Below, piece by piece: positions 18,085 to 58,380 of a stretch of DNA of 64,000 bases (positions are counted from its first letter, which is position 1; every line of letters begins with the position of its first letter). Source of the stretch: Pseudomonadota bacterium (GTDB lineage Bacteria > Pseudomonadota > Gammaproteobacteria > Acidiferrobacterales > UBA6901); the NCBI GenBank assembly GCA_021819085.1, contig JAKASJ010000018.1:1-64000 (forward strand), given 5' to 3'. Both the position numbers and the translations under genes were made by a program. A model generated the notes under the pieces. That model saw only the letters and a list, made by a program, of their open reading frames with translations. It had not been told where the DNA came from and ran no database searches.

Positions 18085-18161
18085 GCGCCCGTAGCTCAGC
18101 TGGATAGAGTACCTGGCTACGAACCAGGTGGTCGGGAGTTCGAATCTCTCCGGGCGCGCCA
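18085..18161 (+). tRNA. tRNA-Arg (anticodon ACG)
   Basis: A 77-nt tRNA with encoded CCA. Acceptor stem GCGCCCG pairs with CGGGCGC (18151-18157). The anticodon arm is CCTGG-CT-ACG-AA-CCAGG, and the T arm contains GAGTTCGAATCTC. ACG (deaminated to ICG) reads CGU/CGC/CGA. The 3' 45 bp are the integration site of all the elements to the right, and the tRNA itself remains intact. Confidence 0.97.
18117..18161 (+). repeat. att repeat 1 (tRNA-Arg 3' end)
   Basis: A 45-bp sequence from the anticodon loop to the CCA of tRNA-Arg. It is repeated without mismatch at 29474-29518 and 58336-58380, with flanks that diverge. This is the left boundary of element A. Confidence 0.93.
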
Positions 18162-18207
18162 TTTAATCAAGCACTTAGCGTATTACCAAGATTGCCTCAG
18201 CGCCTCT

Positions 18208-18276: not shown

Positions 18277-19323
18277 ATGGCATCGTTTATTCCCAGAAAG
18301 GGTCCCGGCGGCAAGCGCGTCTGGCAGGCCCATGTTCGGCGGCGTGGGTGGCCCACGCAGGTCCGCACGTTCGATAGCAAAGCCAAGGCCCAAGCCTGGG
18401 CTCGGGACATCGAGTCCGAGATGGACCGCGGGGTGTTCGTCAGCCGGGCCGAAGCCGAGGCGACGACCCTGGGCGAGGCGTTGGAACGATACCTGTCAAA
18501 AGTTTCCGCTCAAAAGAAAGGTAAGGGGGATGCCAGCATCATCCGGTGGTGGTGTGCCCTGCCGCTTGCCACCCGCCCGCTCGCAGCCATCCGGGGAAAA
18601 GACATCGCCGACGCGATCCGCATCAAGGAGCAGGAGGGCGTCGGGAACAAGACCATCGTGATCTATCTTGGCCTGCTCTCCCATCTGTTCAACCTCGCCC
18701 GCACGGTCTGGGGTATGGAATCATTGCGTAATCCTGTGGAGATGGTCCGCCGGCCGAGATTGCCCCAGGGCCGCACGCGGCGTCTTAGGGACAGTGAGGA
18801 AGCCCGGCTGATCGAAGCGGCCAAAACCTACGGCGGCGAGATTCAGTGGATCATCCCCTGGGCGATCGAAACCGCCATGCGCCGCGGAGAGATTGCCGCC
18901 ATGCGCTGGGCGCACCTGGACAAGAAAAACCGGGCGCTGCTCATCCCCGAGACCAAGACCGACACGCCCCGGCGCGTGCCGCTGTCCAGCAGGGCTCTGG
19001 CGGTCCTGGACAGCTTACCTCGCCGGCTGGACGGAGCGGTGTGGTCAATGCGCCCGGATTCCATCAGTCAGGCCTTCGAGCGGGTCGTAGTCGCGGTACG
19101 TGCGGCCTACGAGCAGGAATGCAAGAAGGCCGGGGTCGATCCGGACGAGATCCTGCTCAAGGATCTCCGCTTCCATGATCTGCGGCATGAGGCGACCTCG
19201 CGACTCTTCGAGCGCGGCCTGAACCCTATGGAGGTTGCCGCGGTCACCGGCCACAAGACGCTGCAGATGCTGAAACGCTACACGCATCTGCGGGCGGAGG
19301 ACTTAGTGAAACGACTGGGGTAA
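18277..19323 (+). CDS. int: Tyrosine-type site-specific integrase of element A
   Basis: A 348-residue phage-type integrase. The N-terminal arm-binding part contains KRVWQAHVRRRGWPTQVRTF. The catalytic domain, from about residue 170, shows the Arg box ETAMRRGEIAAMRW, the HxxR box FHDLRHEATS, GH in VTGHKTLQMLK, and the nucleophile Tyr in RYTHLRAEDL. A GGGGGG tract precedes ATG 18277. It lies 116 bp from the attL repeat in the tRNA gene. It is unlike the integrase remnants of elements B and C, which end in LLAHADS and YRRxPxRxKP. Confidence 0.95.
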   Translation: MASFIPRKGPGGKRVWQAHVRRRGWPTQVRTFDSKAKAQAWARDIESEMDRGVFVSRAEAEATTLGEALERYLSKVSAQKKGKGDASIIRWWCALPLATRPLAAIRGKDIADAIRIKEQEGVGNKTIVIYLGLLSHLFNLARTVWGMESLRNPVEMVRRPRLPQGRTRRLRDSEEARLIEAAKTYGGEIQWIIPWAIETAMRRGEIAAMRWAHLDKKNRALLIPETKTDTPRRVPLSSRALAVLDSLPRRLDGAVWSMRPDSISQAFERVVVAVRAAYEQECKKAGVDPDEILLKDLRFHDLRHEATSRLFERGLNPMEVAAVTGHKTLQMLKRYTHLRAEDLVKRLG

Positions 19324-19413: not shown

Positions 19414-20460
19414 ATGAGTGGCGCGCGCACCTTTATAAGGGTTCTGCTATTCGGGTTAGCTTTCTTCATCAGCGCCAATGCCTCAGCGGCCATGACGCTT
19501 GCCCAAGTCAACGCACTACAAGCCCAGGCTGTTAAAGGAAATGTCCAGGCGTTGCGGCAACTTCAGTCGGCAGCGCAGGCGGGAGTTGCCGACGCGCAGT
19601 TCAACCTGGGGGTCATGTACGACAAAGGCCAGGGGGTGCGGCAGAATTACGCCGAGGCAACCGAGTGGTTCCGCAAGTCCGCCGAGCAGGGAGTTGCCGA
19701 CGCGCAGTCCAACCTGGGAGTCATGTACGCCAAAGGCCTAGGGGTGCCGCAGAGCTACGTCGTAGCGGCGAAATGGTACCGTAAGGCCGCCGAGCAGGGA
19801 GATGCCACCGCCCAGGCCAACCTCGGATTTATGTACGCCAAAGGCCAAAGCGTACCGCAGAATTACGCCGAGGCGGTCCAGTGGTTCCGAAAGGCCGCCG
19901 AGCAGGGATATGCCGACGCGCAGTACAACCTGGGATTCATGTACGACTACGGCGAAGGCGTCCCGCAGAATTACGCCGAGGCAGCTAAGTGGTATCGCAG
20001 ATCCGCCGAACAGGGCCTTGCCGCAGCGCAGTACAACCTAGGAGTGATGTACGACAAAGGCCAAGGCGTACCGCAGAATTACGCCGAGGCGGTCCAGTGG
20101 TTCCGAAAGGCCGCCGAGCAGGGATATGCCGACGCGCAGTTCGGCCTTGGAGTCATGTACGAACAGAACCAAGGCGTGCCGCAGAATTACACCGCTGCAG
20201 TGAAGTGGTATGGAAAGTCTGCCGACCAAGGGGACGCCGCGGCGCAGGGTAACTTGGCGGTGATGTATTGGCTCGGTCGGGGCGTCCCGCAGGATTACAC
20301 GCAGGCGCTAAAGTGGTTTATCGTGGCTAAGGCCAGCGGGGATTCAAAAAGAGTCGCCAAGGGTATGCAGCAACTGGAACGTCTCGCCACCCCCGCGCAG
20401 ATCGCTCAAGCCCAGGCACTCGCGCGCGCGTGGTGGGCGGCGCATCACGGATCCCGTTGA
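19414..20460 (+). CDS. Secreted Sel1-repeat (SLR) protein
   Basis: 348 residues with an N-terminal signal peptide (VLLFGLAFFISANASA, cut after about residue 26) and about seven 36-residue Sel1-like repeats of the form ADAQFNLGVMYDKGQGVPQNYAEAxxWFRKAAEQG. Sel1 repeats form alpha solenoids for protein-protein contacts, here probably in the periplasm. The repeats are so similar in DNA that recent internal duplication or gene conversion is likely. Substrate and role are unknown. Confidence 0.9.
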   Translation: MSGARTFIRVLLFGLAFFISANASAAMTLAQVNALQAQAVKGNVQALRQLQSAAQAGVADAQFNLGVMYDKGQGVRQNYAEATEWFRKSAEQGVADAQSNLGVMYAKGLGVPQSYVVAAKWYRKAAEQGDATAQANLGFMYAKGQSVPQNYAEAVQWFRKAAEQGYADAQYNLGFMYDYGEGVPQNYAEAAKWYRRSAEQGLAAAQYNLGVMYDKGQGVPQNYAEAVQWFRKAAEQGYADAQFGLGVMYEQNQGVPQNYTAAVKWYGKSADQGDAAAQGNLAVMYWLGRGVPQDYTQALKWFIVAKASGDSKRVAKGMQQLERLATPAQIAQAQALARAWWAAHHGSR

Positions 20461-22202: not shown

Positions 22203-22622
22203 CTAGCCGGACTCAGAATCTTCTTCGACAGCAGGAACGTGCGAAAACCCGGAGGCCACTGCGCAGTAAAACCGATGCGCACCCTGAGTCAACCGAAACC
22301 GGTACTTGCCCTCCCCACCAGTCCGAGAAACGCACACAGGCTCAACCGGGGAGTCCGCCTGAAACCACTTAAGTACGCGAAGCACTCGTTCCCGAGCGGT
22401 ACCCTCGCGCCTTCCAGCCCCAGCGTCATTGAAAACGCCGTGCGAACCCTTGCGATCCAGCGGCTGCACATCTGTGATTGCCACCTCGAATAGGCGCAAC
22501 CCAGAATACGGTGAAGGGCAACTTCGATATGACCGCCTCTTCGGTTTGAACGTCTTCATTCTCGCATCGTCCCACCACTCGTCCGGAATGGTGTATTCGA
22601 CATCGTTATGCAGGAAGCGCAT
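22203..22622 (-). CDS. ParB-like domain protein
   Basis: About 139 residues from ATG 22622 (MRFLHNDVEYTIPDEWWDDA). The C-terminal segment GKYRFRLTQGAHRFYCAVASGFSHVPAV resembles the ParB/Srx-like fold signature in which a parameter list is followed by G-x-HR-x-x-A-x-x-x-G. The region before it lists variables and values (VFEVAITDVQPLD-type pattern). Function may be partition-related or an unrelated nuclease-like role. It is not next to the ParA-like gene at 23834, so pairing is unproven. Confidence 0.5.
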   Translation of the reverse strand: MRFLHNDVEYTIPDEWWDDARMKTFKPKRRSYRSCPSPYSGLRLFEVAITDVQPLDRKGSHGVFNDAGAGRREGTARERVLRVLKWFQADSPVEPVCVSRTGGEGKYRFRLTQGAHRFYCAVASGFSHVPAVEEDSESG

Positions 22623-22689
22623 CGTTATTGGGTCCAACGTAAAGTAGCCGACATTTTGCGCACGACGGAGGCGTGTGTTCAATCTCAGC

Positions 22690-23335
22690 TTCCCTGCGAA
22701 AGATTCACTGCCCCAAAACGGTCCCGATCCAGCCCCAAAAACAGACCTAAAGTAGACTTCAACCCCGTCCTAGTGAGCCGCCTACGGCGTCTTCAGAGGA
22801 CCACCCAGGCCCCGGGGTGGTCTGCGCCCCTGCGGGGCTACGTCCCGGACGTTTCGTCCTCTTGCCATTCACCGGGGCGGACTCCTCGAGGTCGGACGGG
22901 ACGGAGACGGCACAAGGAAAGCCCGCGAGGGAGGGACAGAAAAAAACCGGATCAGAGAAAGTCCGGCAGGCGGCAAAAAGCGGGATCCGCAATGTGTTAC
23001 GTGGGACACATCGGCGCGATCAGACGGAGGGAAAACGGCGGATCAGAGAGCGAGCAACGCACGATCGAGCGCCGCAGACACACAGCCCACCGCCAGGGTG
23101 CGATTGTGTGGTACAGCCTACCGAACAGGTAGGCGTCGAAATCGGTTGGAAGTTGCGGGAGTTAGTGGAAAGTCGTTGATTGCGGCAGACAGAGTGAGAC
23201 AAAACAAACTATGTCGCGACACGATCGACACAAGAAGCCACTTCCGACACATCTAAAAAAACTCCTGTCAAAACCTGCTAATAATTATTAATCCTCGCCG
23301 CGGCGAGCAATCAACATTGAAGGAGGCAAGGACCT
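22690..23335. other. Gene-poor region upstream of the mobilisation-like operon; candidate oriT zone
   Basis: No convincing coding sequence in about 645 bp. It contains several inverted repeats: ATGTGT/ACACAT around an 8-nt loop (22992-23011), GCCTACC/GGTAGGC around GAACA (23116-23134), and the 14-bp palindrome CTCGCCGCGGCGAG (23294-23307), 28 bp before the TraK-like gene. In IncP and IncQ plasmids the transfer origin lies next to traK-type genes, so an oriT here is plausible, but no known nic consensus was matched. Confidence 0.4.
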
Positions 23336-23683
23336 ATGACTCTCGACACAGTAACCCCGGTCCGGCTTGCGGGGCGACTCCGGACGCTGGTTCCGGAGAT
23401 CGCCGCAGCCCGGGCAAGAGGGGTCGAGTGGAAACAGATCGCCGAGGCGATCGGACCGCAGGTCGGGGTAACACCCGATCCGGCAGACGGCGGACGGGGC
23501 GCTGCGCTGAAGATCAGACAGGGGTATTACCAGTCCGTGAGACTGATCGAGAACGGCAAGCTCGCGCAGCCGGAAATTCAAGCGACTCCGGCAGGCAAGC
23601 CGACCACGACCGCCCGTGACCCGTCAGGGTTTGGGCGGGAGAAACCACGCAACCCGATATTCGACGACGACTCGCCGAGGTGA
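23336..23683 (+). CDS. TraK-like oriT-binding protein (tentative)
   Basis: 115 residues. A helical N-terminal half with RGVEWKQIAEAIGPQ and ALKIRQGYYQSVRLI resembles the layout of TraK/MobC-type accessory proteins. It is followed by a Pro/Thr-rich linker and a C-terminal GFGREKPRNPIFDD motif comparable to the GFTFNPTPDKKD end of IncP TraK. A GAAGGAGG ribosome site precedes ATG 23336. The next genes encode a ParA-family protein and a membrane protein, the same order as traK-traL-traM. Confidence 0.55.
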   Translation: MTLDTVTPVRLAGRLRTLVPEIAAARARGVEWKQIAEAIGPQVGVTPDPADGGRGAALKIRQGYYQSVRLIENGKLAQPEIQATPAGKPTTTARDPSGFGREKPRNPIFDDDSPR

Positions 23684-23686
23684 TTT

Positions 23687-23830
23687 ATGACGACGAACCA
23701 ATTCACGCTGTTCAGCCAGATCAATGACAAGGGCGGCATCGGCAAATCCAATGCGGTGTGGGCGCTGATCGTATGGATGCGCAAGCAACCGTCCAGCCAA
23801 CAACGCAGCACTCAAACGAAGGCAAGGTGA
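23687..23830 (+). CDS. 47-residue ParA-like N-terminal fragment
   Basis: ATG 23687 to TGA 23828-23830. It contains a deviant Walker A motif (INDKGGIGKSNAVWALI) like that of ParA/TraL proteins but stops after 47 codons, 3 bp before the start of the full-length ParA-like gene. It may be the remnant of a duplicated traL-like gene or a small peptide in its own right. It has no switch or Walker B region. Confidence 0.55.
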   Translation: MTTNQFTLFSQINDKGGIGKSNAVWALIVWMRKQPSSQQRSTQTKAR

Positions 23831-23833
23831 ATT

Positions 23834-24553
23834 ATGACGATTTTCATTTCTCATGGTGAAAAAGGCGGTCTCGGCAAGTCCCGGCTCGCGATGGTGATCA
23901 CGGACCTGCTGATCAAGCGCGGACGCGACGTGGTGGTAGTCGAGGGAGACAAGAGCGGGGCCGATGTCGGCAAGCGGTTCACGGGCCTGGTGGATGTGGG
24001 CTTCATCAACCTAAACCGTCCGGACGCCATGGAAGAGGCGTTCAGTTCGCTTGGCGGCTGGCTGCAGGACCACGCAGCCGGCAAGGACGTGGTGGTGAAC
24101 CTGCCCGGGCAGGCCTCCGACACGCTCGACCAGTTCGCCGGGCTGCTGTCCGACACCGCCGGCATGCTGGGTCACGACATGACGGTGTTCTACTCGGTCG
24201 GCAACCTCGACCTGCACACCGCGAACCTGGTCCGTTCGATGCGCGAAGGGCTGATGAGCGTGGTGCCGATTGACCGGCAGATCGTGGTCATGCCGGAGCT
24301 CTTTGGGCTTCCGGCGGGCTACCACTGGCGCGGGTCCACCGAGCGGCAGAAGTTCCTCGCCGCCGGCGGCAAGGAGGGCGTCATGCCGAAGCTGAAACCG
24401 GATCCACTGGAACAGATGATCCGGGAAATGCCCGGCAGCTACAGCGCAATGCTGGCGGCGGACAGTCCGATCCGGATTGCGGACCGGGCACTGCTGTTCA
24501 GATGGTTAACCGCCGCGCACCAAGTTGCGGCACTGGGAGTATCGAATGGGTAA
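23834..24553 (+). CDS. ParA-superfamily ATPase, TraL/StbB-like
   Basis: 239 residues. Deviant Walker A GEKGGLGKSRLAMV (about residues 8-21), VVVVEGDKSGADVG for the switch I region and KDVVVNLPGQASDTLDQFA for Walker B. Length and position in a traK-traL-traM-like order fit plasmid TraL/StbB proteins involved in partition or transfer rather than chromosomal ParA. Its last codons overlap the start of the next gene (24546). Confidence 0.75.
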   Translation: MTIFISHGEKGGLGKSRLAMVITDLLIKRGRDVVVVEGDKSGADVGKRFTGLVDVGFINLNRPDAMEEAFSSLGGWLQDHAAGKDVVVNLPGQASDTLDQFAGLLSDTAGMLGHDMTVFYSVGNLDLHTANLVRSMREGLMSVVPIDRQIVVMPELFGLPAGYHWRGSTERQKFLAAGGKEGVMPKLKPDPLEQMIREMPGSYSAMLAADSPIRIADRALLFRWLTAAHQVAALGVSNG

Positions 24554-25322
24554 CGAAACCATGTCGCTGCGCGAGCAAATCCTTGACGCGGTGCCGCAGG
24601 CTAGCCATACCGGCATACTGAAAATGGCGCTCGATCAGAACATCAATGATCCCAATGATCCGCATTGGGGGATGGTGGCGCTCGCCTGGGCATCCACTGA
24701 GTCGGCCAGCATCGCACGGGCAGCGCTGGAAAGCGTGCGGAAAGAAACCGGCAAAATTCCCGATGCGATTTACCAGGGAACGGTGAAGGCGGGATCGGAC
24801 CTGAAAGGTCAAGTCGAGGCCGCAGGGCAGGCGGTGCTCACAGCCGCCCAGGCCAAAGGTGCGGAACTCGAAAGGAAGGTGAGTGACGCGATCACCAGGG
24901 CGACGACCGCTGGCAGCGCTGAACTGAAGAAGGCGGTCACATCACTCGGCCCGGCTGCGGCACGGAAGCGCGACGATCTGGTGCAGGCAATGCAGGTGGC
25001 GGCAGCGGAGGCCGCCAGGGATGTGGCCCGCGCGGGATTGGCGGGAAAGATTGCAAAAAGCTGGGCAACGGTCGCACTGTCGCTTTTGGTTGCTGCCGGG
25101 CTTGGTGCTACAACGGGCGCTGTGATAACGGATACGGAAATCAATTCGCCGGGACAGGTGATAGAGTCGAATCCGGGCCTTCGCATCTACCCGAACGTGA
25201 CGGGAGGTTACACGGAAGTCCTGGGGCCGGATGTTCGTGTGCAAAACACCACCGGCACGGCGGGCTGTCCCGCGTACCGGATTTGCCTGAAAGTAAGCAG
25301 CACGACAGCGATAAAGCGGTAG
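24546..25322 (+). CDS. Membrane-anchored protein, TraM-like position
   Basis: 258 residues from ATG 24546, overlapping the end of the ParA-like gene by 8 bp. A long Ala-rich helical region (about 65-175, probable coiled coil) is followed by one membrane helix (WATVALSLLVAAGLGATTGAVIT, about 180-202) and an approximately 55-residue exported tail with two cysteines. It sits where traM lies in IncP plasmids, but sequence similarity is not clear. It is the last gene before a strong terminator. Confidence 0.6.
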   Translation: MGNETMSLREQILDAVPQASHTGILKMALDQNINDPNDPHWGMVALAWASTESASIARAALESVRKETGKIPDAIYQGTVKAGSDLKGQVEAAGQAVLTAAQAKGAELERKVSDAITRATTAGSAELKKAVTSLGPAAARKRDDLVQAMQVAAAEAARDVARAGLAGKIAKSWATVALSLLVAAGLGATTGAVITDTEINSPGQVIESNPGLRIYPNVTGGYTEVLGPDVRVQNTTGTAGCPAYRICLKVSSTTAIKR

Positions 25323-25610: not shown

Positions 25611-26462
25611 TCAGAGCAACCCGAGCAACCCGAGCTTGCGTGCGGCGGCATCAACAGTGCGTGCGGCGTACTTTTGCGCGCCAGACTCATCGCGACGCTT
25701 GCCGCGCTCCAGCGCCTGGCGAGCCAGTTTTGATATCATCAATGCCCGTTCGCGCGAGAGGTCACGTCCAGCGCCGGATGCCCAATGCAGGCGTCCAATG
25801 CACCAGCCGAAATCACGGTGGGACTCAGTGCCCGACGACGGCTGGAGCACCGGCCCCCCCACTTCGCGGCTGCGCCGCTGGGGAAGGGCGATCGTGGTGG
25901 CAGACGGCAGCAGATACTGACCCACCGCCAGCGGGCGTCCTCCGGTCGCCGCAACAACCCGCGCACAGAAATCATTGCGGCCTGGCTTCCGGTTTTTGTA
26001 TCCCGGCGCCCGTCCAAAATGTTCTCCGGACACAGACCCACCATCGCACCCGATCAATGATGCGAGGTCGCGTTGTACACGCAGTCGTTCAGGCTCGGAC
26101 AGAGAACGGTCAGCCCGGATCCAGATTTGGCAGTTGTCGAGGGACGTTTCAATAACCAGCGTGGAGTATTTGCGCGCGATGGCCAGTCCGCGGCGGACTG
26201 ACAGGTCGTCCAAAAAAACTACCGGACAGTCGAGGCCTCGGGCAGGACGCAGGTAGACATTCCGCCCGTTCCGGTTCTCAGCCCAGCCCCACCTCGCCGA
26301 TTTCATAACCTCGTTTCTGTCCCGGTCGCGGCTCTGTCCCAGCATGCCCTGTCCGTCCAACACGCAAAAATTCCACCGACTAACCCCGGCGGACTCGAAC
26401 CAGTCCACAGCCGCCGCCAGCGCGGACTGATACGGCAGATGACCACTGCCACCTACTGTCAT
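25611..26462 (-). CDS. RepB-type replication primase
   Basis: About 283 residues. ATG 26462 is chosen because GGAGG lies 6 nt ahead; a longer open frame would translate the iterons as AQTPGPV repeats. Motifs of the RepB/archaeo-eukaryotic-type plasmid primases: VVFLDDLS (catalytic acidic pair), LVIETSLDNCQIWIRAD, and EHFGRAPGYKNRKPGR. It would prime replication from single-stranded sites, as RepB does in IncQ plasmids. It is read away from the iterons, and repC/repA lie on the other side in the same direction. Confidence 0.85.
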   Translation of the reverse strand: MTVGGSGHLPYQSALAAAVDWFESAGVSRWNFCVLDGQGMLGQSRDRDRNEVMKSARWGWAENRNGRNVYLRPARGLDCPVVFLDDLSVRRGLAIARKYSTLVIETSLDNCQIWIRADRSLSEPERLRVQRDLASLIGCDGGSVSGEHFGRAPGYKNRKPGRNDFCARVVAATGGRPLAVGQYLLPSATTIALPQRRSREVGGPVLQPSSGTESHRDFGWCIGRLHWASGAGRDLSRERALMISKLARQALERGKRRDESGAQKYAARTVDAAARKLGLLGLL

Positions 26463-26601
26463 AATCGCCTCCGATGCCCTTCCCAGCGCGTAGCGCGCAG
26501 TGGGGGGCCAGTGTTCCAGTTGTGGGTGTTCGGTTGGGCCGGCACCCATGTTTCCCGGAGGGGAGGGGCGGGGGCAGTTAGACCCCGCTCCTCCCCGACT
26601 G

Positions 26602-26632
26602 ACTATAGAATCTATAGATTCTATAAAACCTA
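26602..26632. other. AT-rich palindrome beside iterons (putative oriV unwinding element)
   Basis: Contains a perfect 20-bp palindrome (ATAGAATCTA/TAGATTCTAT, about 26604-26623) followed by TAAAACCTATAG in otherwise GC-rich DNA. It is directly next to the tandem 21-bp repeats, the usual layout of an iteron origin. Confidence 0.6.
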
Positions 26633-26633
26633 T

Positions 26634-26781
26634 AGGGCCGGGCGTCTGTGCCACGGGGCCGGGCGTCTGTGCCACGGGGCCGGGCGTCTGTGCCACGGGG
26701 CCGGGCGTCTGTGCCACGGGGCCGGGCGTCTGTGCCACGCTGTTAGCCCTTTTTCCCTACGCCGCCGGGCGCCTGTGCCAC
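26634..26781. repeat. Iterons: five tandem 21-bp repeats plus one degenerate copy
   Basis: Copies at 26634-26654 (one mismatch at the first base), 26655-26675, 26676-26696, 26697-26717 and 26718-26738 share GGCCGGGCGTCTGTGCCAC. A degenerate sixth copy (26761-26781) lies one unit further on, after 22 bp, and is inside the 3' end of repC. Unit length and tandem contiguity match RepC-binding iterons of IncQ-type origins. Confidence 0.85.
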
Positions 26782-27597
26782 GCTTGCCCGGACGTGACTG
26801 CCCTCGATAATCAACCCACTTGCTGCCAGATCGGCGGCTGATTCGGCTAAGCGTCGGCGTGCATCACGCCGCTGCTGCCCCGCAGCCGGCACGCCGAGCC
26901 AGTCCAGCACTGTTTCGATCCGCAGCCCATGCTTGGGCCACTTCGACGCATCGTGCGTCAGCAGCACTCTGGCCGCTGCCTGTCCGATCCCGTGCCGTAT
27001 GTGCGCGATCGGATGGGGGTCGTACCATGCCCCTTTCTCGTCGAGCAGCGCTGCCCATTCCATCCCGAGCGTGATCCTCCACAGGCGCCTTTCGCGCCCA
27101 GGGTTGAGCGGGTCGTGCGCCGAGATTTTTGACCACTCCCGTTTTTCAATAATTTTTGCATCGCCTCCACGCGACCCGTCCGCGCTTTCATACTCGAATG
27201 TTGCCGCCATGATCTCCCTGACCAGTTCAATCAACTGCGAGTACGAGTAGGCTGGGGTGGCGTCTCGCTCCCGTTTTTTTGAGCGGCGAGCCCGCCGCTT
27301 TCCGGAAGCCATTCCCCGCCGCAGAAGGTACGGGTCAATCAAGAGGCGTAGCCTCCCGCTTCGCGTCCGCTCGGAGTCCAGCCGCGTGAACATCATCAAA
27401 TCCAACACATCGGCGTGCCGTTGCCCGAGCGCGCCGATCACGCGACACCGTCCGCCACTTTTCCCCCACTTCGTGTCGATCCATTCGCCGGATAGCTCTA
27501 CCGGTTGCCGTGTGGGCTGGAACACGCGCAGTCTCGCCGCCAGCGCCGGTGCAGTTGGCAGGCTCTCTTGATCGAGATCGGAATCAGAAGCGCCCAT
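26743..27597 (-). CDS. repC: RepC-type replication initiator
   Basis: 284 residues from ATG 27597, which has AGGAGG 7 nt ahead and overlaps the end of repA by 14 bp. The layout (basic N-terminus, SGRLRLLIDPYLLRRGM, SYSQLIELVREIMAATFEY and later winged-helix-like segments SKWPKHGLRIETVLDWLGV and RRDARRRLAESAADLAASGLI) matches IncQ RepC proteins, which bind iterons. Its last codons (VAQAPGG) are encoded by the degenerate sixth iteron. Confidence 0.8.
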   Translation of the reverse strand: MGASDSDLDQESLPTAPALAARLRVFQPTRQPVELSGEWIDTKWGKSGGRCRVIGALGQRHADVLDLMMFTRLDSERTRSGRLRLLIDPYLLRRGMASGKRRARRSKKRERDATPAYSYSQLIELVREIMAATFEYESADGSRGGDAKIIEKREWSKISAHDPLNPGRERRLWRITLGMEWAALLDEKGAWYDPHPIAHIRHGIGQAAARVLLTHDASKWPKHGLRIETVLDWLGVPAAGQQRRDARRRLAESAADLAASGLIIEGSHVRASVAQAPGGVGKKG

Positions 27598-28735
27598 CGT
27601 CGTCCTCCTGCGCCTGCGGGTTCGATCTCGTCGCAGACTCATCGTATTCGTCTCCGAACACGTCCGGCGCCTCCAGCACTGCGCGCCTGCCGGCTTCGTG
27701 CGTGTCCTCCGCACTCGACGTCGGTTTCCTCGGCTTCGACCAGCGGCTTTTCTTCTTCTGCCTGCCCTCCGAGCGCTTCGCGGCCTTTCGTTCCGCCACG
27801 GTCTGCGCGTCGATTTCCAACGTCGCAGCGCTCGTGTACCCGAGACTCATCAGCGACCCGTCTTCCATCATCTCCAGAATGAGCGGCTGGTGGTTCGACC
27901 AGCCGTTCTTCGGGCGAGGCATCTCGTTGTGTTTTGCCACGCTCACAGCGACCAGGCTCCTCATCTCGTGCGCCTCCATGGCGGCATCGTCTTCCACCTC
28001 GACCCCGCGCCAGATCGCCGACTCCTCAGGTCTCACCGGCGTCATCGCGAGCAGCCACCTCAAGTGCCCCGGGAGCCCGTTGCCACCGGCCCGAGATTCG
28101 TACCGCAGCCGGTTTCTTAACGTGTCTTTCCCTGACGCCTGGTTGGTATGACTGATTGTCAGCACGGTCCCGCCAACTCGCTCTCTGAATTTTTCGAGAA
28201 GATTGGCAAGCATTTGCTGTTGCGGAATATCGATTGGGTCTTGCCCGAGCGCTCCCCTCCCGATCGTGTCGATGATCGTGAGCGTAGGCCCAAATTTTTT
28301 CGCCTCCTCGACCGCGTAGTCGAATCCAGGTCCTGTCTGCCAGCCGTCGCGCATCCATTGCCAGATCGACCCGACGCTTCCGTCGGGCGCGATGATCCTC
28401 TGCGCCTCGATCTCGATGTTCATGCCTGCCGCGCAGCGATTCAGGTCAGTGACCCAGATCTTGCGCGCCGATTTCTCTCCGCCTAAAATCATCACCCGGC
28501 CCCCGGCAACCTTTTTTCCGAACCATGTGCCACCGCCGGCTGCGACGGTCAGCGCGAGGCTTAGGATCACACTTGATTTGCCGGTCCCCGGTCCGCCGAA
28601 TACGTCCCCGACCGTGCCGCTAGGCAGGACTCCATCGATCAGCCAGTCGATCGGCTCCACCTTCTCTTTCAGCAGCAGTCCGAGATCGAGCCAGCGGGAT
28701 GTGGCGGGTGTTGGGGTAGGGGTTGGCGCGGTCAT
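27584..28735 (-). CDS. repA: RepA-type hexameric replication helicase
   Basis: 383 residues from ATG 28735, which overlaps the stop of the upstream gene (ATGA). RecA-like ATPase of the AAA_25/RepA class: Walker A FGGPGTGKSSVILSLAL (about residues 46-62), Walker B TLTIIDTIGRGA, and the VLTISHTNQASGKDTLRNR sensor segment. IncQ RepA is a ring helicase that opens the plasmid origin with RepC. The C-terminus is a charged low-complexity tail. Confidence 0.85.
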   Translation of the reverse strand: MTAPTPTPTPATSRWLDLGLLLKEKVEPIDWLIDGVLPSGTVGDVFGGPGTGKSSVILSLALTVAAGGGTWFGKKVAGGRVMILGGEKSARKIWVTDLNRCAAGMNIEIEAQRIIAPDGSVGSIWQWMRDGWQTGPGFDYAVEEAKKFGPTLTIIDTIGRGALGQDPIDIPQQQMLANLLEKFRERVGGTVLTISHTNQASGKDTLRNRLRYESRAGGNGLPGHLRWLLAMTPVRPEESAIWRGVEVEDDAAMEAHEMRSLVAVSVAKHNEMPRPKNGWSNHQPLILEMMEDGSLMSLGYTSAATLEIDAQTVAERKAAKRSEGRQKKKSRWSKPRKPTSSAEDTHEAGRRAVLEAPDVFGDEYDESATRSNPQAQEDDDGRF

Positions 28736-28995
28736 ACCGCACCCCCTTTCGTCTTTTCCGGATTGATTGAGCCGTGGTGCGCGGTGCGTCCGGTGCTTAG
28801 CCACGCATACACATCATGCGCGCGCCATAACCACCGTCGGCCCCCAGGCGACTTAAACGCTCCCGGTGGAACGCGTTTCCGGCGTGTAGGGTCGCTCGAT
28901 GTGATGTATGCCCGCAGTGTCGATGGGTTTCGCCGCGTGATTTCCGCGACCTGCTCAAGCGTAAGGTGTACTGGATAGACTGGGAGTTGTTGCAT
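28732..28995 (-). CDS. Small helix-turn-helix protein (AlpA/excisionase-like or Rep regulator)
   Basis: 87 residues. The N-terminal half is a MerR/AlpA-type helix-turn-helix (LTLEQVAEITRRNPSTLRAYI), followed by a wing with basic residues and WRAHDVYAWLST. It is first in a likely operon with repA and repC, overlapping repA by 4 bp. By position it may be an autoregulator analogous to the small repressor of IncQ rep operons, or an excisionase. Confidence 0.7.
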   Translation of the reverse strand: MQQLPVYPVHLTLEQVAEITRRNPSTLRAYITSSDPTRRKRVPPGAFKSPGGRRWLWRAHDVYAWLSTGRTAHHGSINPEKTKGGAV

Positions 28996-29473
28996 ACCCG
29001 ATCCTCGGGTGAGGATCGGGTCGGTGTGTGCGGTTCGTGCGCGATTGCCGTCCCGACCTCACCTCATATTGTGGTGTTGTCGGATCGGGCGCTTGGCACG
29101 CAGCCGGCACGCAGCCGGGTAGCGTCGCGAGGGTTTGGGGCTTGGACGGGACCCCCCGCCTGGGTTCCTTTAGCAAGGATTACGCAGGTCGGACTCCCAT
29201 CTCTATCCCCCCATGTCGTCTCTTGCTGCAAGGTCGGAGCGGTGCTACCCGCACGGACCTGACGCTGGGTATGTCTCACGATATTGGAGTAAATAATAGC
29301 GGGCATGCTTACCAAGTCAACCCGACGCGACTGTTGTTCCGTCGATCCGTGCTGTAATTTTGCTGTAATCGTATTGCGAGGGGGCGCTCTGCGTCGCTAA
29401 ACGGCGTGCGGCAACTGACTGATTTTCCGCAAAACCGTCGCGCGCGAGAGACGTGGCTACGTGTTTTTATTGT
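28996..29473. other. Right end of element A, no gene
   Basis: No supported coding sequence. It should contain the promoter of the rep operon (reading left) and, near the right boundary, the paired TGCTGTAA direct repeats (29350-29357, 29360-29368) that mirror those at the left end. Confidence 0.5.
29350..29368 (+). promoter_or_regulatory. Putative integrase arm-type sites, right end of element A
   Basis: TGCTGTAA at 29350-29357 and TTGCTGTAA at 29360-29368, with the same 11-bp period (measured between the TGCTGTAA cores) as at 18208-18227. They lie about 105 bp inside the right att repeat. Confidence 0.55.
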
Positions 29474-29518
29474 CTACGAACCAGGTGGTCGGGAGTTCGA
29501 ATCTCTCCGGGCGCGCCA
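29474..29518 (+). repeat. att repeat 2 (boundary of elements A and B)
   Basis: 45 bp identical to the 3' end of tRNA-Arg (18117-18161). The upstream half of the tRNA is absent, so this is not a gene. Confidence 0.93.
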
Positions 29519-29556
29519 GTTCTTTCAAGCACTTACGCTGCCCAATAAATAGGCAC

Positions 29557-58335: not shown

Positions 58336-58380
58336 CTACGAACCAGGTGGTCGGGAGTTCGAATCTCTCCGGGCGCGCCA
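58336..58380 (+). repeat. att repeat 3 (boundary of elements B and C)
   Basis: 45 bp identical to 18117-18161 and 29474-29518. Only the 3' part of the tRNA is present. Confidence 0.93.

Follow-up and report, generated by a model that had tools for sequence, protein, structure and literature searches.

IncQ-type replicons are usually found on free plasmids, and the presence of such a replication module between tRNA repeats in a genomic contig of a gammaproteobacterium raises the question of what kind of element carries it, and how that element might replicate and move once excised. The window analysed here is the whole stretch of 64,000 nucleotides in which the locus lies. We consider it likely that its segment at 18.11-29.52 kb is an oriT-only integrative mobilizable element with its own IncQ-like replicon, mobilised in trans. 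Such an element would probably excise, copy itself like a small plasmid and borrow the machinery of another element in order to move.

The element and its integration site

As first proposed, the module sits in an element that is inserted at a tRNA and has an integrase and att repeats; the annotation confirms this placement. The element measures 11.4 kb, lies between tRNA-Arg repeats and encodes a tyrosine integrase. The features at its borders and its genes outside the replication and transfer regions are:

18085..18161, plus strand: tRNA-Arg(ACG), the integration site (ARAGORN)
18114..18164, plus strand: attL-like repeat at the tRNA 3' end, a direct repeat of 51 nt sharing 96% identity with 29471-29521
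18277..19323, plus strand: tyrosine integrase (PF00589, E 8e-25)
19414..20460, plus strand: Sel1-repeat protein, cargo (PF08238, E 1.7e-80)
22203..22682, minus strand: unassigned protein from the open reading frame list, in the slot held by the relaxase in relatives (by comparison with L004, L030, L031 and L037)
28732..28995, minus strand: small HTH_17 protein, excisionase/AlpA-like (PF12728, E 3.9e-6; phrog_66, E 7.4e-6)
29471..29521, plus strand: attR-like repeat, the 51-nt direct repeat partner of 18114-18164

The integrase is 60% identical to that of a second element in the same genome (locus L004, contig C69) and 53% identical to those on the repC-bearing loci L027 and L031, while the product of 22203..22682 has no Pfam match. 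Excision between the two tRNA repeats would be carried out by the integrase together with the small HTH protein. A third att-like copy at window position 58336 and further copies elsewhere in the genome, including contig C20, point to tandem accretion of elements at the tRNA-Arg site. In an empty-site test with joined flanks, further att copies came after the right flank, and relatives had att-like copies too.

Two further observations concern the surroundings of the element and a repeated palindrome within it. Window positions 29522-58403 form a second block between tRNA-Arg repeats, with an antiporter/complex I-like cluster, two tandem MutS domain V proteins and dynamin-like GTPase genes. 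The palindrome GGTTACNNNGTAACC has five occurrences within the element (window 21269, 21551, 21611, 25399 and 25591), one of which contains a mismatch, and a single one in the rest of the genome, at C38:14192 on a contig with two oriT copies; it may serve the element family as an operator or for partition.

The replication module and its initiator

The module consists of three genes and an origin block (26602-26782) situated between the RepB-type primase on one side and repC-repA on the other, the arrangement that had been predicted:

25611..26468, minus strand: RepB-type primase (3h20, E 2.2e-13; PF16793, E 2.7e-11, above cut-off)
26560-26596, no strand: GC-rich hairpin adjoining the AT repeats (fold z = -3.1), candidate ssi or terminator
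26603-26636, no strand: ~9-bp CTATAG repeat array of four units, palindrome included, candidate duplex-unwinding element
26635-26739, no strand: five exact 21-bp iterons (TRF: period 21, 5.0 copies, 100% matches)
26762-26782, no strand: iteron 6, degenerate, within the 3' end of the repC reading frame
26743..27714, minus strand: RepC-like initiator, 51% identical to RepC of L004 and 33% to the gene following repA in IncQ plasmids
27584..28804, minus strand: RepA-type RecA-like helicase (AAA_25, E 1e-21; 1g8y, E 2.5e-4)

The assignment of all three Rep proteins to IncQ families held only in part when checked by HMM searches. RepB is, by its matches to 3h20 and PF16793, clearly homologous to RSF1010 RepB, and it is 48-49% identical to the primases beside repC in L029 and L037. 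Its likely start is the ATG at 26468, the open frame continuing through the iterons to 26738. Pfam detects no relaxase domain in this frame and no fusion to a MobA relaxase is present, in agreement with the prediction of a stand-alone primase. The RepA helicase appears distantly related to RSF1010 RepA, the similarity being weak (1g8y, AAA_25), and against plasmids it gave one weak match only (E 1e-5).

RepC, with a likely start at ATG 27594 and an 11-bp overlap with the end of repA, has no Pfam match. Since PF06504 recognises the IncQ-1 RepC (4e-145) but not the protein of the element, an identity with the classical IncQ RepC was ruled out, and alignment of the two by hhalign gave a probability of 11% with short local similarity only. 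The initiator of this IncQ-like replicon is therefore, as judged from these profile comparisons, a RepC family separate from the classical one. An AlphaFold (AF2) model of RepC, weak in itself (mean pLDDT 58, four sequences), has domains 2-3 of the replication initiator RctB as its best PDB match (E 4e-3), a likeness that is suggestive only at this low model confidence. No relatives of RepC were found in phages or in viral contigs. The notion of an IncQ-like origin is upheld by the primase, the helicase, the repC-repA order and iterons like those of some small IncQ plasmids, but not by the RepC family.

The repeat structure itself was as predicted, with five contiguous copies of the 21-bp unit GGGCCGGGCGTCTGTGCCACG and a degenerate sixth inside repC. 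The AT palindrome, taken initially to be 20 bp long, is present as a perfect palindrome of 22 bp (TATAGAATCTATAGATTCTATA, 26604-26625) and forms part of an array of four ~9-bp repeats with a CTATAGAAT-like unit (3.7 copies by TRF), the periodicity of which was reached by 0 of 2000 shuffles. Iterons of 20-22 bp adjoining an AT-rich stretch, by which IncQ replicons are recognised, are thereby found here. Elsewhere in the 3.42-Mb genome the iteron sequence occurs in one place, the second element (C69:167445-167535, 88% identity). In a replication cycle of the IncQ kind, RepC would bind the 21-bp iterons and open the adjoining AT-rich repeat array, the hexameric RepA helicase would be loaded at the opened array, and RepB would prime the displaced strands as in strand-displacement replication.

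The module is not a one-off but belongs to a recurrent family. Members of the RepC family came to light at 11 further genomic loci and on a few small plasmids. Among 57 genomes of the order, 7 have RepC with the same origin layout, as do 5 of the 369 sampled in the class, our own genome being included in both counts. Nearly all loci compared have 21-bp iterons located at the 3' end of repC or within it, then a ~9-bp repeat array and a GC-rich hairpin, which follows the array in the relatives too; the rows for the ~9-bp array in L004 and L032 are left uncounted as evidence, and L027 gave no significant period in the array test. The fraction of the iteron array lying inside repC ranges from 0 to 1 across the loci read.

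This overlap with the repC 3' end in most chromosomal relatives is what might be expected if the iterons mainly served to regulate repC-repA or incompatibility, with the excised form replicating from another site, such as oriT in a rolling-circle mode; the relaxases of some other integrative elements may indeed drive replication (PMC5704250). We hold such a role of the iterons to be extremely improbable, as the AT-rich array and hairpin following the iterons across the family, and the AT repeats in two plasmids, have the anatomy of an origin, and a rolling circle from oriT would have to operate in an element without a relaxase.

The helicase and primase that accompany RepC vary between loci. 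RepA occurs together with RepB in the window, L029 and L037, whereas RepA in L030 and L031 has an upstream DnaG-like zinc domain (recognised by eye in the translated sequences), and L004 and L034 have a DnaB-type helicase in the place of RepA beside the same RepC and iterons, with no adjoining RepB. Related integrases share loci with repC in L004, L027 and L031. The second element, L004, lies at a tRNA-Thr. Besides a related integrase (60%) and a RepC 51% identical to that of the window element, it encodes a TrwC relaxase as well as ParA-like and coiled-coil proteins. In L037 the RepA-RepC-iterons-RepB layout of the window is accompanied by stb-like genes and by a TrwC relaxase whose frame is interrupted once. 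One may tentatively speculate, at somewhat less than even likelihood, that RepC and its self-overlapping iterons constitute a portable initiator module distinct from classical IncQ RepC, paired with varied helicases and primases across MobF integrative elements, some of which lack a relaxase and are moved in trans via a shared oriT.

The habitual occurrence of IncQ replicons on free plasmids, and of element-type RepC on a few small ones, could also be read as the accidental integration of an IncQ-type plasmid into an older island, replicon and island then being unrelated parts. A tblastn search with RepC returned eight plasmid records only, from Klebsiella and Enterobacter, one Serratia, one Citrobacter and two Leptospirillum. 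Those read are MOBP or MOBQ and not MobF, and in several relatives the RepC-iteron module is again accompanied by the integrase, the stb-like genes and oriT. This repeated co-occurrence disfavours an accidental origin, which we judge quite improbable.

The oriT-like site and the missing relaxase

Between the cargo and the replication module lies a region with the following features:

23077..23139, minus strand: oriT-like site, stem-loop GCCTACC/GGTAGGC followed by the ACACAATCGCACCC hairpin
23336..23683, plus strand: StbA-like small protein, 34% identical over 74 aa to the gene at the same position in L004 (E 5e-4)
23834..24553, plus strand: ParA/StbB-like ATPase, 39% identical to the counterpart in the second element and 32-36% in relatives
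24525..25322, plus strand: coiled-coil protein with a probable membrane segment in the StbC position, 32% identical to the L004 counterpart (E 4e-13)

ParA-type Pfam matches of the ATPase are weak, and so is the similarity of the StbA-like protein to StbA of R388 (30% over 76 aa, E 0.001). The protein of 24525..25322 is recurrent in relatives, its coiled coil and membrane segment being judged by eye. A truncated second start of a ParA-like gene is located at 23690-23830, just upstream of the intact gene.

The oriT became visible only on comparison of several relatives, the intergenic regions of the window element and the second element sharing no exact words. Five loci (L004, L030, L031, L032 and L037) have stb-like genes oriented divergently from a TrwC gene, with a stem-loop and then ACACA...CGCACC in the space that separates them. 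A hidden Markov model built from these five loci, with the window left out, gave its only significant match in the 64 kb at 23139-23097 (E 4.6e-7); this test is not fully independent, as the site was first recognised with the window among the sequences compared, whereas the matches on contigs C38 and C72 were unseen. Genome-wide, a sequence model from those five loci finds five sites, namely that of L004, two on C38, one on C72 beside stb-like genes, and that of the window. Compensatory changes have occurred at 4 of the 7 pairs of the stem, which is perfect in the window. Of the 57 genomes of the order, 11 contain the site family, at most five times in any one genome. On this comparative evidence 23077-23139 is a conserved MobF-type oriT-like site. 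Second and third helices proposed at the site were not supported.

The original prediction that no relaxase is present holds for coding sequence, as the element encodes no relaxase and tblastn gives no TrwC remnant in it (best E 0.17). It does not extend to mobilization function, represented here by the MobF-type oriT and the stb-like genes. An oriT-like site recognised by both sequence and structure is combined with the absence of a relaxase, as in an oriT-only element. Partitioning and transfer would be under the control of the stb-like proteins. The oriT at ~23.1 kb would be nicked by a MobF relaxase of the TrwC type encoded on another element, and the strand would be exported by conjugation machinery likewise supplied from outside.

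Two TrwC genes (C68 and C69) and one VirB4 gene were found in the genome. The nick core of the window site matches those on C38 and C72 and not that of the C69 element, whose oriT core differs (GGTGCGTATGTGTAT against GGGTGCGATTGTGT). No such oriT was found near the C68 TrwC gene, and no relaxase lies beside an oriT with the identical core of the window type in this genome. At locus L054 (G000:C57) a VirB4-like gene is found on a contig with a DndB gene and neighbours resembling DndC and DndD; these Dnd genes are a DNA phosphorothioation set.

Alternatively, the element might be the decaying relic of one that used to bear a relaxase; having lost it, the element would now be inert at the tRNA, its replicon intact in appearance but unused. 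The lack of any relaxase remnant, the truncated ParA-like start at 23690-23830 and the oriT copies without adjoining relaxase (two on C38, one on C72), which look like debris of the same family, would all fit with decay. However, the genes for the integrase, RepA, RepB, RepC and the stb-like proteins are intact, as are both att repeats, the five iterons are exact and the oriT stem is perfect, and we regard a relic as unlikely.

Comparison with known systems

A review of 2017 described the persistence of excised integrative mobilizable elements as an unexplored world and knew no canonical integrative mobilizable element with a MobF relaxase (PMC5704250). The recurrent family described here joins an IncQ-like origin to MobF mobilization and has both relaxase-bearing and relaxase-less members. 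With two members in one genome, replication and helper dependence are directly comparable.

Among integrative elements, GIsul2 and the IncP islands resemble the window element in being tyrosine-integrase islands with plasmid-type rep genes (RepA/RepC or RepA), and GIsul2 is also without a relaxase (PMC5704250). They differ in their guaA site and IncP-related transfer functions. SGI1 is likewise integrative, needs the conjugation functions of a helper and replicates once excised (PMC7826253, PMC7433901), but it employs a Rep_3-type replicon, an IncC helper and a trmE site.

The transfer region may be compared with that of R388, in which the stb operon lies beside oriT with the relaxase genes divergent on the opposite side (PMC3098194). 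The R388 oriT has a similar hairpin, GCACC..GGTGCGTATTGTCT, the likeness residing in sequence and in the position beside stbA. The stbABC genes match in position and gene order; in sequence, StbA is at the limit of significance (E 0.001), and the similarity of StbB and StbC falls short of it. Unlike the element, R388 is a conjugative plasmid.

The replication region shares with RSF1010 and IncQ-1 a clearly homologous RepB, a distantly related RepA and direct-repeat iterons with an AT-rich stretch, but RepC of RSF1010 belongs to PF06504 and its primase is fused to MobA. In the IncQ-1 plasmid pQ1 the 22-bp repeats lie more than 1.2 kb from repC, unlike in the window element. The small plasmids carrying the RepC family differ in being free, with no integrase annotated, and those read are MOBP or MOBQ; the Klebsiella and Enterobacter plasmids read are typed IncQ2. 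In pPSKoxy4_4 and pSMBC31-5K the RepC homologue (~33%) overlaps the repA end as in the window element; about four 21-bp repeats come directly after it, then 9-bp AT repeats, and the iteron core CGTGGCACA..GCCCG is common to both plasmids and the window element. The plasmids pJF-707 and pUL3AT (L060 and L061) have been described as repC-less (PMC7557826), but the gene after repA in both is a member of the RepC family that bears the annotation ABC transporter ATPase. This suggests that IncQ-3 plasmids described as repC-less do have a RepC, a divergent one to which the label of an ABC transporter ATPase was wrongly given.
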